IMG/VR virus record: IMGVR_UViG_3300035703_001759
Location: 1-20,173 of that record
Length of the DNA: 20,173 nucleotides
DNA from: a virus
Strand: one strand, 5' to 3'
The notes below the pieces were generated by a model, which was not told the origin of the DNA, did no database searches, and was given only the letters and a program-made list of their open reading frames with translations. Shown in pieces: positions 13,616 to 17,319 of this stretch. Positions within the stretch are counted from its first letter, which is position 1; the number at the start of each line of letters is the position of its first letter. The translations under genes were made by a program, and so were the position numbers.

Positions 13616-14350
13616 TTAATCTCTTAATAACACCTTTCGCCAGACGGCTAATTTAAATGCCAATGCCTTTGCCCGTGGAATATTACCTTCCTCAATCTTA
13701 CGCAAATGATTCTTGCGGTCAATTAAATTATCTGAATCAGGCTTTTCATTTAATGCCATCGCCTTTGCTTCTTCCCATAGCTTTTCTTTTTCCCCGTCTT
13801 CCCAAACAATGTAGCCACGCTTAACGCAAATGTCGAACCAAAATACTGGAATATCATCAATGTTAGGCGAATGAAAGTTTTTTAACTTATTGTCAAAGTC
13901 ATTGTCGTATTCTTCAGCAACTTTGCCCAGCCTCTTCAATCTGTCTTCTTCTTCCTTCTTCGCTTGTAGGTCGCTATCCATTGCAAAATAAATCTTTTGC
14001 CGCCAGTTAATATAAGCGGTCAGAATACGACCAATAGCATGAAGGTCAACTTTGCCATATAACTTATGGTCGTTTATATCAAGTTCTTGCTTTGCAAACT
14101 TTTCAAATGCCAGCCTAATTTCATCAACGGAAATCAATTTGTAAGTTGCGATAAAGTCGGTTACCTCGACAAGGTGTTCGGGGCTTGCCTCAATGCCGTA
14201 TAATGGCAAAAGTTGTTTAATGACTTGGTTAATTTTTGGTAAGGATTCCATGATGCCTGTTTTAAACAAGCGTTTTTCACGGTTGTCGATAACAATTTGA
14301 ATATCCTGAACCTTTTCTTCAATTGTCATTGCAATGGCTGGTAAATTCAT
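13616..14350 (-). CDS. Probable replication-associated protein, 244 aa
   Basis: I take ATG 14350 (MNLPAIAMTIEEK) rather than 14416, which would run through the upstream gene's end and the A/T-rich spacer. ATG 14329 is also possible. The protein is helical and charged; features are an AATYKLISVDEIRLAFEKFA-like central helix region (TYKLISVDEIRLAFEKFAKQ), a Glu/Lys-rich coiled segment (LQAKKEEEDRLKRLGKVAEE) and a C-terminus with WFDICVKRGYIVWEDGEKEK. I recognise no family. Its place two genes after the initiator-like gene makes a helicase-loader or replisome role possible, but that is contextual. Confidence 0.6.
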   Translation of the reverse strand: MNLPAIAMTIEEKVQDIQIVIDNREKRLFKTGIMESLPKINQVIKQLLPLYGIEASPEHLVEVTDFIATYKLISVDEIRLAFEKFAKQELDINDHKLYGKVDLHAIGRILTAYINWRQKIYFAMDSDLQAKKEEEDRLKRLGKVAEEYDNDFDNKLKNFHSPNIDDIPVFWFDICVKRGYIVWEDGEKEKLWEEAKAMALNEKPDSDNLIDRKNHLRKIEEGNIPRAKALAFKLAVWRKVLLRD

Positions 14351-14388: not shown

Positions 14389-15048
14389 TTACAAATTTAA
14401 AATATAATCTCCCCATTGTTTTGCCATAGCATCGGCAATACCCGGGAATGTCTTAGACCTTACTTTGCTTCTTTCTTCGCCTTTTAAATTTCTTGATTCC
14501 TTATACCATAAAGCTTGTTTTTTTTTCTTTCCAGTTTTTTTATCAATCCATTCAAAAAATTCTCCTTTTTCTGTATGAGTTATTACATCATCAAATAAAT
14601 TAGGTGTAGCGTTGTGATATAATTTTGGTAAATTTTTTAACCAAAGGCAAGTTGTTTTCTGTGCTTTATCACCAAAATAATATGGTTGAATGAATTGAGA
14701 TGGAGTCATATAATTTTTACTCATTATTCCAACTGGATTTTTAATTGCAATATGCTTAATATTTGCTTTTGCAATTTTTAAAAAAAAATCAATACCTTGT
14801 TGCTGCCTTCCATCCTTTATTTTTTGTTCAAACCATTGTGAACCACTTACTGCTAAATGCGTGCATGGTGGAAAAGCAATCATTGCGTCCCAATTATCAT
14901 CAATAATTTCAAAAACATCACATTGATAATGTTTAGCATTTATATTTCTATTAGGTTGTATATCGCAACTCCATGCATCAAAACCTAATTCTTCAAATCT
15001 TCCTCTTACCTCATCACTTTCTTCACAAGCTATTAAAATTCTTTTCAT
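14389..15048 (-). CDS. DNA C5-cytosine methyltransferase-like protein, altered motif VI
   Basis: 219 aa, a compact phage type. Motif I-like ILIACEESDEVRGRFEELGF ends at residue 23 with WSCDIQP (26-32), and motif IV is FPPCTHLAVSGSQWF with Cys62 as nucleophile candidate. Motif VI normally reads ENV or ENP; here residues 103-105 are KNP (AIKNPVGIMS), so the Glu that protonates the cytosine ring is replaced by Lys. FGDKAQKTTCLWLKNLP follows, as in the phage family. There is no obvious full target-recognition domain. The gene is visibly more A/T-rich than its neighbours. It may be inactive, use another acid, or have a different role. The start is 2 bases after the initiator gene's stop. Confidence 0.75.
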   Translation of the reverse strand: MKRILIACEESDEVRGRFEELGFDAWSCDIQPNRNINAKHYQCDVFEIIDDNWDAMIAFPPCTHLAVSGSQWFEQKIKDGRQQQGIDFFLKIAKANIKHIAIKNPVGIMSKNYMTPSQFIQPYYFGDKAQKTTCLWLKNLPKLYHNATPNLFDDVITHTEKGEFFEWIDKKTGKKKKQALWYKESRNLKGEERSKVRSKTFPGIADAMAKQWGDYILNL

Positions 15049-15050
15049 TT

Positions 15051-15986
15051 TTATTGTGTTTGATATTTCTTCATCTTTTCTGCAAGTAACCTTTCCACTT
15101 CGTCATCATAGGCTTTTTTCTTTGCCGCTGGGCTGGATGTCTGGTAAGCCGTGTATATTTTCCCAGCTTGTCCGTACAATGTCGCTGGGTTAAAGTTAGC
15201 TTTAATCCATTTGTCATTCAAGTCCCAAGCTGCTTGTAAAAATACTTTTAATGCCGTAATGTTATCACCATTCCTATCAACTTTTTCAATCCAACGCATA
15301 AGGTAAACCATGCCGCCAGCATCTTTTGGGCTCATAATATAATGCCCGTTTTTATCGGTCGGGTAGGCTGCACCTGATAACTGTTCAAAGGTTTGACAGA
15401 ACACGGTAAAGGCTTCGTAGGTGGGGTTTGGCTTGCGCTCCCCCTTTTCTTTTTCTTTACCCGCAGTTTCTTTTTCTTTTTCAACAATGGAGACAATAGT
15501 AAACGGGTTTACTTTGCTACTTTGAGAATCATTAATTACAACCTTTTTAAAGTGCGAAAACTCGTTTTCAATCTCTTTTTTTAAGTTAGTATTTATAATA
15601 GTCTTTATTTCTTTCAAGTCTTTATTTATTAGTGACGAATTTTTCCGTGTCGGATTTTTACCGTTACGGGTTTTTACCGTGTCGGTATTTTCCATACACG
15701 GTGAAAAATTTAGGGTATAATCGTAGCTATCAAATTTCCCAGTTTCCCGACGTTGTTCCCGATTTAAATAACCAGTTTGCAAAAGTTCTTCAATGTATTT
15801 CCTCAAGGTGTCCTTAGTGTACCCCAGTTCCTTTGCCATTACTCCTTGGTAAAATTTCCATTCATCAGGCATTGAAGCCATGTAACAAAAAAGGAAACGT
15901 GCGCGGTCGCTGAGATTTTTGTTTCGGATAATGTCATTGGGAATAATGGTAAAATTATCCTTGATTTTATTATTTAACTTGTTCAT
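15051..15986 (-). CDS. Winged-helix replication initiator-like protein
   Basis: 311 aa from ATG 15986; the TTG-type start at 16028 would overlap the upstream nuclease gene. Residues about 10-92 form a helix-turn-helix domain typical of phage replication proteins: FTIIPNDIIRNKNLSDRARF, then MAKELGYTKDTLRKYIEELL as recognition helices and a wing (GKFDSYDYTLNF). Residues about 93-200 are a polar linker rich in Asn, Lys and Glu. Residues 205-311 form a helical domain (YEAFTVFCQTFEQLSG, WDLNDKWIKANFNPATLYGQ) resembling the C-terminal part of DnaD-like or lambda O-like proteins. The codons for residues 93-116 contain phased repeats (15640-15708), so the gene may carry its own origin. Downstream neighbours are a methyltransferase-like and a replication-associated gene. 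Confidence 0.75.
   Translation of the reverse strand: MNKLNNKIKDNFTIIPNDIIRNKNLSDRARFLFCYMASMPDEWKFYQGVMAKELGYTKDTLRKYIEELLQTGYLNREQRRETGKFDSYDYTLNFSPCMENTDTVKTRNGKNPTRKNSSLINKDLKEIKTIINTNLKKEIENEFSHFKKVVINDSQSSKVNPFTIVSIVEKEKETAGKEKEKGERKPNPTYEAFTVFCQTFEQLSGAAYPTDKNGHYIMSPKDAGGMVYLMRWIEKVDRNGDNITALKVFLQAAWDLNDKWIKANFNPATLYGQAGKIYTAYQTSSPAAKKKAYDDEVERLLAEKMKKYQTQ
15577..15639. other. A/T-rich tract beside the repeat cluster
   Basis: Between 15581 and 15630 only 8 of 50 bases are G or C, much lower than the adjoining repeat cluster. It lies on the downstream side of the repeats in the direction of the gene, where a DNA-unwinding element would be expected for a lambda-type origin. Confidence 0.5.
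15640..15708. repeat. Iteron-like repeats inside the initiator gene
   Basis: On the plus strand the units are TTTTTCCGTGTCGGA (15640-15654), TTTTTACCGTTACGGG (15655-15670) and TTTTTACCGTGTCGGT (15671-15686); the CCGNNNCGG cores begin at 15645, 15661 and 15677, exactly 16 bases apart. A fourth, inverted copy (TTTTTCACCGTGTATGG) occupies 15692-15708 on the other strand. The spacing is not a multiple of three, so protein repetition does not explain it: the encoded residues (TDTVKT, RNGKNP, TRKNSS) are not a repeat. Confidence 0.8.
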
Positions 15987-15990
15987 TTTT

Positions 15991-16413
15991 CTATATTTTA
16001 AAATTATTATTATCACAATGGTTTTCAAACATCTCGATAACCTCTAAAACATTTTTTTGTACGGTTGTTTTACACCATTTTCTTTTGTAGTATAGTTCCG
16101 ATACATTTTGTTTAGATACAATTATATCATCATTAACGTCGTGTACATGATGCCTAAAAACAATTACAACAACCCTTTTATTTCCATCTAAAATTGCATT
16201 AGCTAAATTTTCAAGAGCCATTCTTTGTCCTTTTGGAAGTTCAGCGTCACTATGTTTGCCTTCTAAAATTATAAATGCTTTACCATTATAATCTATAATT
16301 CCATCAATATCTGTTGGAGTTATATTTCTTCTTCTTATCAATCCTAAAAAGCTATTGATTTGTCTGGCTCGACTTTTATATTTTAATTCATCTTTTTTAA
16401 AAAATTCTGACAT
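15991..16413 (-). CDS. Small PD-(D/E)XK nuclease-like protein
   Basis: 140 aa. A short nuclease core is visible: TPTDIDGIIDY supplies Asp35/Asp37, IILEGKHSD gives the ExK pair Glu51/Lys53, and KGQRMALENL supplies Gln63 in a following helix. This resembles small phage endonucleases and VRR-NUC or resolvase-like proteins. The C-terminus (VQKNVLEVIEMFENHC) is helical. It is the first gene of the leftward operon, just after the leader with a terminator, and its stop lies 4 bases before the initiator start. It is more A/T-rich than the late genes. Substrate specificity cannot be told. Confidence 0.65.
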   Translation of the reverse strand: MSEFFKKDELKYKSRARQINSFLGLIRRRNITPTDIDGIIDYNGKAFIILEGKHSDAELPKGQRMALENLANAILDGNKRVVVIVFRHHVHDVNDDIIVSKQNVSELYYKRKWCKTTVQKNVLEVIEMFENHCDNNNFKI

Positions 16414-16557: not shown

Positions 16558-16605
16558 AAAATAATTTTGCTAAAAATAATTTATTATTTATAAAATAATA
16601 AAGTT

Positions 16606-16613
16606 TATCTTTG
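16606..16613 (+). promoter_or_regulatory. Rightward -7 box TATCTTTG for sugar operon
   Basis: TATCTTTG ends 4 bases before the ATG at 16618. If used, transcription would start at or next to the ATG, giving a leaderless or nearly leaderless mRNA. Another match, TAATTTTG at 16562-16569, would give a leader of about 40 bases. Confidence 0.55.
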
Positions 16614-16617
16614 CCTT

Positions 16618-17319
16618 ATGAATTACCTCGTTATTACCTCAATTACTGGAAACAAAGACGTACTGGTTGACCCAGACACAACCTTTGATAATTGTACTTA
16701 TGTCGCTTTTGTCGATGAAATTAATCATAACCTTAATGTATGGAATCAAGTAAAGAACCATGAATTTTCCATGATTGACCCGTTAAGGCATAGGCGCAAC
16801 GCAAAGGCTGAAAAGATACTTTGCATTCCTCAGGTTATGAACACGGCTTTTGATTATATCATTTGGCACGATGGAACGCACCAACTGGCAATGAACCCCG
16901 CAGATATTATAAAAGAATATGTGGACGCTGATATGTTTCTTTTTCGTCACGCGCAAAGACGTTGTTTATATCAGGAAATTGCCGCCGTGATTGAGGCAAA
17001 GTTGGATAATGAAGACCTCGTTAAAAGCCAAATGGAATTTTATCAACGCGTTGGAATGCCGCCTTACTTTGGGCTTTATGAAATGGGTTGCTATATTCGA
17101 AAAGTAAATCAAGTGACTATTGATTTTGGCTTGGCTTGGTTTGAGCAAGTTTGCAAGTATTCCAGCCGTGACCAGATTTCTTTTCCTTTTGTGCTTTGGA
17201 ACTTTGAAGAAAGGCTAAAGGTTGCAATTCTTAAAGGTAACTGTTCAAAGTACATCGGGACGCCGTTTGAAAACGATGGAAACATATATTTTATAAACCA
17301 TGCAAATCATATAAAATGA
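16618..17319 (+). CDS. DUF616/TOD1-like glycosyltransferase
   Basis: 233 aa with the hallmark sequence order of the DUF616 (TOD1/MUCI70) glycosyltransferase family: ITSITGNKDVLVD (6-18), YVAFVDE (28-34), DPLRHRRNAKAEK (54-66), YIIWHDGTHQL (80-90), FRHAQRRCLYQE (109-120) and YSSRDQISFPF (181-191). The WHDG segment is in the place of the usual W-x-D-G nucleotide-sugar site. It would transfer a sugar to an unknown acceptor. It opens a five-gene operon and overlaps the aminotransferase gene by 4 bases (ATGA). Confidence 0.78.
   Translation: MNYLVITSITGNKDVLVDPDTTFDNCTYVAFVDEINHNLNVWNQVKNHEFSMIDPLRHRRNAKAEKILCIPQVMNTAFDYIIWHDGTHQLAMNPADIIKEYVDADMFLFRHAQRRCLYQEIAAVIEAKLDNEDLVKSQMEFYQRVGMPPYFGLYEMGCYIRKVNQVTIDFGLAWFEQVCKYSSRDQISFPFVLWNFEERLKVAILKGNCSKYIGTPFENDGNIYFINHANHIK

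Follow-up and report, generated by a model that had tools for sequence, protein, structure and literature searches.

The viral DNA analysed here, a stretch of 20,173 nucleotides referred to in its full length as the window (IMG/VR record IMGVR_UViG_3300035703_001759, positions 1 to 20,173), carries within its replication initiator gene an array of short palindromic repeats phased at 16 bp. On the basis of sequence comparison among metagenome contigs, this array is very probably an intragenic iteron-type origin bound by the initiator encoded by the same gene, in a layout resembling that of phage lambda and with a protein of the HTH_36 type.

The initiator gene was located at 15051..15986 on the minus strand and is predicted to encode a protein of 311 amino acids from an ATG at 15986; an alternative TTG start at 16028, given by the ORF tool, was judged less likely. 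The protein was matched by Pfam HTH_36 (PF13730; 2.5e-7, 30.8 bits against a cut-off of 25) and by two PHROG families of replication initiation proteins (PHROG_270, 4.1e-15; PHROG_428, 6.1e-15), while a match to PF06970 (RepA_N) was absent among its Pfam matches up to E 0.1. By its PF13730 winged helix-turn-helix (wHTH) domain and its PHROG replication-initiation families it is an initiator of the HTH_36 type, possibly RepA_N-like in fold. The system had been called lambda-like in the original prediction, which was found to be right for the layout; on the side of the protein, the O-like PHROG families matched only weakly (phrog_678, 'O-like', 6.7e-5; phrog_391, 0.002) and phrog_270 was stronger.

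Three parts of the protein could be distinguished. Codons 1-95 (15702..15986, minus strand) encode the winged-helix DNA-binding domain (DBD), modelled by AlphaFold2 as a helix-turn-helix with a two-strand wing, mostly at pLDDT 63-89. Codons 99-184 (15435..15692, minus strand) encode a linker which is predicted to be disordered (pLDDT <50 for residues 99-184) and houses both the array and an A/T-rich tract, and codons 185-311 (15054..15434, minus strand) encode a helical C-terminal domain (mostly pLDDT 78-90) which is found on six N-terminal classes in relatives and is presumed to contact the replication machinery. The solved structures nearest to the DBD model were all replication proteins, namely Geobacillus DnaB (5wtn, Z 11.4), RepA_N (4pt7/4pql, Z 8.5 at 17% identity, the fold being a common one) and RctB domain 1 (5ube, Z 8.4); mid-range Z scores are usual among wHTH folds, so these neighbours were used as supporting evidence only.

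As predicted, three CCGNNNCGG cores are present at 15645, 15661 and 15677 (plus-strand coordinates; spacing 16/16), and the array is placed directly after the winged-helix codons and is followed by the A/T-rich tract. Each core is a dyad of the form CCG-N3-CGG, the best copy being TACCG-ACA-CGGTA. On the gene strand the first dyad reads CCGACACGG (15677..15685), with half-site columns that are near-invariant at every codon position; the second, 16 bp away, reads CCGTAACGG (15661..15669), and the third, a further 16 bp on, again reads CCGACACGG (15645..15653) and is near-invariant. An inverted copy had also been proposed at 15692-15708. The sequence in question does exist (ACACGG opposite ACCGTG), but it is not a separate inverted element: it belongs to a fourth, degenerate, in-phase repeat, CCGTGTATGG (15692..15701, minus strand), which begins at gene nucleotide 286, exactly 16 nt ahead of the first full core at nucleotide 302, and in which the CC is conserved in relatives. 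The orientation of the copies is undefined because the cores are palindromic.

Five CCGNNNCGG-type cores were counted in the 20-kb window against 1.29 expected, a number reached in 0 of 100 shuffles, and no second pair of cores 16 bp apart was found elsewhere in the window, whose strongest short-period repeat was the 16-bp lag at 15637 (25/32 matches). When codons were shuffled with the protein preserved, the triple dyad arose with P = 5.7e-4, and a local periodicity as strong as the best one here (lags 10-39) with P = 3e-4. An extra ACACGGTAAA at 15401-15410, a lone half-site among the C-terminal codons, was taken as chance. The DnaA box TTATNCACA was not found in the window.

The A/T-rich tract, the presumed unwinding element, lies beyond the array when the gene is read 5' to 3' (15581..15630) and has, as had been noted, 8 G/C in 50 positions. 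Taken alone it is unremarkable, with 2% of the window's 50-mers equally G/C-poor and a synonymous null giving P = 0.20-0.24. Across 34 initiators, the corresponding tracts had a GC content of 0.29, compared with 0.41 for the gene and 0.34 for the synonymous null (Wilcoxon P 8e-9), and a median rank of 5% within their own gene; the tract is therefore significant only across relatives, the single tract of the window lying within its synonymous null. A DnaA-trio, suggested by eye from a ACTANTAA motif conserved in the tract or from its trinucleotide phasing, was rejected: the signal reached P<0.05 in only 4/50 and did not exceed the synonymous null.

The position of the array was compared across 50 initiators (the window's and its relatives) with less than 75% DBD identity, chosen by protein, using a periodicity test that is blind to the core sequence. 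With lags of 13-26, a range chosen once the 16-bp period was known, and with the DBD ends of the most distant loci extrapolated, the strongest periodic segment started between -20 and +90 nt from the end of the DBD in 38 of the 50 (14.5% expected by position), and in 34 of those 38 the period was 15 or 16. The nominal binomial P for this position (3e-22) overstates the evidence, since the sequences are related. Arrays of the L003/L119 type, with exact dyads and diverged spacers, are missed by this autocorrelation test (P 0.77). Looking just after the winged helix was thus a rule that located a phased array in most of these divergent initiators. Two dyad forms recurred: CCG-N3-CGG at 16 bp, in the window, group C, Flavobacterium phage tant8-1 and Croceibacter phage P2559S; and CC(G/A)-N4-(C/T)GG at 15 bp, in 80alpha, TP901-1 and several others. 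In Lactobacillus phage LL-H the A/T-rich linker itself contains a further set of direct repeats of 16 bp (AAGAAATAACAACAG; L077:2414-2469), downstream of degenerate dyads.

Among annotated isolates, Flavobacterium phage vB_FspS_tant8-1 and Croceibacter phage P2559S were the closest relatives (~42-45% DBD identity), sharing CCG-N3-CGG-type dyads at 16/17 bp in the same place; several of their dyads are degenerate, tant8-1 has a Phg_2220_C C-terminus, and an origin is not annotated in either record. Staphylococcus phage 80alpha gp20 and Lactococcus phage TP901-1 REP have a homologous winged helix, an array that follows the DBD at the corresponding position and an adjoining A/T-rich linker, while differing from the window in their 4-bp dyad centre, 15-bp period and Bacillota hosts and, in 80alpha, a Phg_2220_C-like C-terminus. 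In the 80alpha record an annotated putative replication origin covers the place of the array in gp20, and REP is marked 'experimental' in the TP901-1 record.

These comparisons bear on the reading that the array is an autoregulatory operator through which the initiator blocks its own transcription, with replication starting elsewhere. Autoregulation would also give an array within the gene that is matched to the DBD, and the constraint on the DNA described below fits operator and origin alike. However, the array lies ~300 nt downstream of the start codon and not at a promoter, the adjoining A/T tract is richer than the codons require throughout the family, the homologous place in 80alpha carries the origin annotation, and an HTH_36 domain together with its origin forms a plasmid replicon in pPR9 (PMC5703833). 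An operator in place of an origin is accordingly considered unlikely, while the array could be both.

When only the C-terminal domain was used as the query, 32 loci were found, whose N-terminal parts, together with that of the window, fell into six classes with no similarity to one another at E 1e-4, although the C-terminal domains of class representatives were 92-100% identical. The 16-bp dyads were present in 12/12 members of class 1, which has the DBD of the window, and in 0/18 readable members of the other classes (Fisher 1e-8). In their place, class 2 had 22-bp repeats with GGGCAAATGG, class 3 had 23/24-bp repeats with GCGAAATCAACGAAAC, class 4 had 23-bp repeats with CGAAAACGTGAA and class 6 had 22-bp repeats with CGGAAATAAATCCGA; most of these arrays had P <= 0.01 against the synonymous null, the exceptions being L263 (P 0.07) and L247 (P 0.06). 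Five of the six N-terminal classes are therefore each equipped with a distinct repeat array at a shared junction, no tandem array being detected in class 5 by the same test. Class 5 (L254, L260, L268) has an HTH_36 initiator with the same C-terminus, and a G5-rich motif was seen by eye about three times after its DBD, in both orientations.

The flanks of the different classes were mostly 75-94% identical in DNA, and lower in the upstream gene, whereas DNA similarity was missing over a segment of ~400 bp that runs from near the start codon and ends 55-180 nt ahead of the C-terminal domain. In the window this corresponds to an approximate exchangeable cassette of DBD, iterons and A/T tract at 15495..15986, with a right edge between 15495 and 15620. 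A DBD of the window's type with its dyads was also found on unrelated C-termini (L125, with Phg_2220_C, and L126). The array follows the DBD where C-terminus and flanks are constant and stays with it when the C-terminus changes, which shows that DBD, site and A/T tract move together as one inheritable cassette exchanged as a unit by the relatives.

Dyads of this size suit many repressors, and the array might be the site of another protein (a phage repressor, a partition protein or a host factor) that lies in the gene by chance. An unrelated binder would not be expected to track the DBD, but the type of array switches exactly with the DBD class while C-terminus and flanks are constant, and the array stays with the DBD on a changed C-terminus; this explanation is therefore regarded as very unlikely.

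Constraint on the DNA itself was assessed in two directions. A scan of IMG/VR for the exact triple dyad, using DNA only, gave 56 contigs, in 43 of which a gene with a homologous DBD contained the match or directly adjoined it; a 44th (L066) was in another wHTH protein, and the other 12 contigs were mostly G+C-rich. Conversely, a profile search with the DBD gave 55 viral loci and one in a Chitinophagaceae MAG, 55 of these being scorable for dyads. In 54/55, no fewer than two exact dyads were in phase (16 or 32 bp apart), and in 36 all three were present. When genome contigs were searched with the DBD, only one close relative was found, on a 3.25-kb contig of the Chitinophagaceae MAG. The check put forward with the original prediction, whether the 16-bp phase is kept while the linker protein drifts, thus came out in its favour.

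Conservation was scored in 44 unique segments (~21 effective sequences), for which at least one half-site in register was required, removing 4/48. Half-site conservation at codon positions 1/2/3 was 0.96/0.99/0.99, compared with 0.74/0.78/0.64 in the DBD, and conservation of third-position codon choice was 1.00 in the half-sites compared with 0.74 in the DBD. All three codon phases are used for the array among homologues, giving different linker peptides; since the only peptide encoded there is a disordered linker, it can drift over a DNA sequence that is held fixed. In relatives of the L005/L109 type (L109/L110), the second dyad is altered symmetrically in both arms, from CCG...CGG to CCA...TGG (CCACAGTGG), and one dyad is lost in some relatives (L105, L107-L118). 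In one contig (3300032308_001844; L018/L101/L258) the reading frame is broken within the DBD, leaving a first part of 55 amino acids, while the three dyads are intact, which may reflect an error of sequencing or a gene in decay whose site is retained.

The RNA of the array (15620-15720, minus strand) was also considered and may affect translation of the gene. Its strand folds unusually well (z = -4.2), as would be expected if the dyads acted in the mRNA as a hairpin controlling translation or transcription, but the palindromes explain this value. Across 20 relatives only 74.6% of the predicted pairing is kept, with frequent breaks outside the invariant half-sites, and the arrays that take its position in classes 2-4 are direct repeats of another kind, so that a hairpin function is hardly credible. 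That the repeats arose as a side effect of selection for repetition in the linker peptide, a reading suggested by the pentapeptide repeat (e.g. ENPxT) in the linker of the 15-bp relatives, can be dismissed for the window's 16-bp class, where, in line with the original argument that the period is no multiple of 3, the peptide is non-repetitive, several frames are used and the synonymous third positions of the half-sites are fixed.

An intragenic iteron-type origin therefore remains the preferred reading, and it has precedents in known systems. In phage lambda, the O gene contains four iterons of 19 bp and an A/T region of 49 bp (PMC4488673). As is proposed for the window, lambda has an in-gene origin with iterons after the DNA-binding half and then an A/T segment, in the same order relative to transcription; it differs in its 19-bp iterons, compared with the 16-bp CCG-N3-CGG dyads, and no partner resembling the lambda P helicase loader was recognised beside the window's initiator. 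In the RepA_N plasmids pSK41 and pPR9, the origin boxes are central in rep, with a dispensable central linker and a wHTH N-terminus, and pPR9 is a natural plasmid in which ~500 bp comprising the N-terminal domain (NTD) and origin has given way to an NTD of the PF13730 type together with a functional origin (PMC5703833). These plasmids share with the proposed system of the window the in-gene origin, the wHTH N-terminus and an exchangeable NTD and origin, and RepA_N structures are among those near the DBD model, but pPR9 represents a single swap, compared with six N-terminal classes on one C-terminus in the phage relatives. In the PLE satellites of Vibrio cholerae, the RepA DNA-binding domain covaries with its cognate origin and both are exchanged on a conserved C-terminal domain, replication being confined to cognate pairs (PMC8263062). 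The relatives of the window likewise exchange NTD and putative origin against a conserved C-terminal domain, whereas in PLEs the origin, with its three ~30-bp repeats, is in noncoding DNA.

By analogy with lambda (PMC4488673), RepA_N plasmids (PMC5703833) and PLE RepA (PMC8263062), a model of binding, opening and loading at the array can be proposed. Winged-helix dimers of the initiator would most likely bind the CCG-N3-CGG dyads, three full and one degenerate, downstream in their own gene. Several dimers on adjacent dyads would form a nucleoprotein complex, straining and opening the A/T tract beside the last dyad. The helical C-terminal domain, perhaps with a conserved partner of 244 amino acids, would then bring the host helicase and primase to the origin. 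GC skew in four full relatives tracked coding direction only and gave no origin signal.

The 244-amino-acid protein, which is all-helical, is encoded at 13616..14350 (minus strand) and has 47 distinct homologues; it neighbours the initiator in relatives, where its gene often begins ~16 nt past the initiator. It is a possible helicase loader or replication partner. No Pfam or PHROG family and no PDB fold match was found for it, its BFVD matches being uncharacterised, and a loader like lambda P or DnaC found no family or fold support. A methyltransferase-like gene (14389..15048, minus strand; phrog_757, 1.1e-56) lies between the initiator and this neighbour; it looks like an insertion, as it is absent from that place in several relatives. 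From the relatives (Flavobacterium and Croceibacter phages and the Chitinophagaceae MAG contig), the host of this freshwater phage would appear to be a member of the Bacteroidota. Before the plus-strand gene at 16618, TTTATCTTTGC (16590-16618) resembles the Bacteroidota promoter element TAnnTTTG, which is consistent with such a host.

Intragenic origins and modular initiators are already known from lambda, RepA_N plasmids and PLEs. Measured against the open-licence literature, the advance would lie in breadth, in the 16-bp CCG-N3-CGG family, which appears to be new, and in how many cassettes are exchanged on a single C-terminus. We consider the chances about even that related Bacteroidota phages draw from a pool of intragenic origin cassettes (at least five, of ~400 bp), interchangeable on one near-constant C-terminus, in which one recombination switches the specificity of initiator and origin together, a speculative driver of the exchange being escape from origin-targeting nucleases, satellites or decoy origins, and that HTH_36-type initiators of several phyla as a rule carry their origin at the junction that follows the winged helix. 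If the proposal is true, pairs of initiator and origin become readable from metagenomes. The array itself offers a concrete candidate origin for an uncultured phage group, and the natural swaps, with several DBD/iteron cassettes on one C-terminus, provide a panel for how wHTH initiators read their sites and for a possible role of origin parasites or incompatibility in diversifying the initiators.
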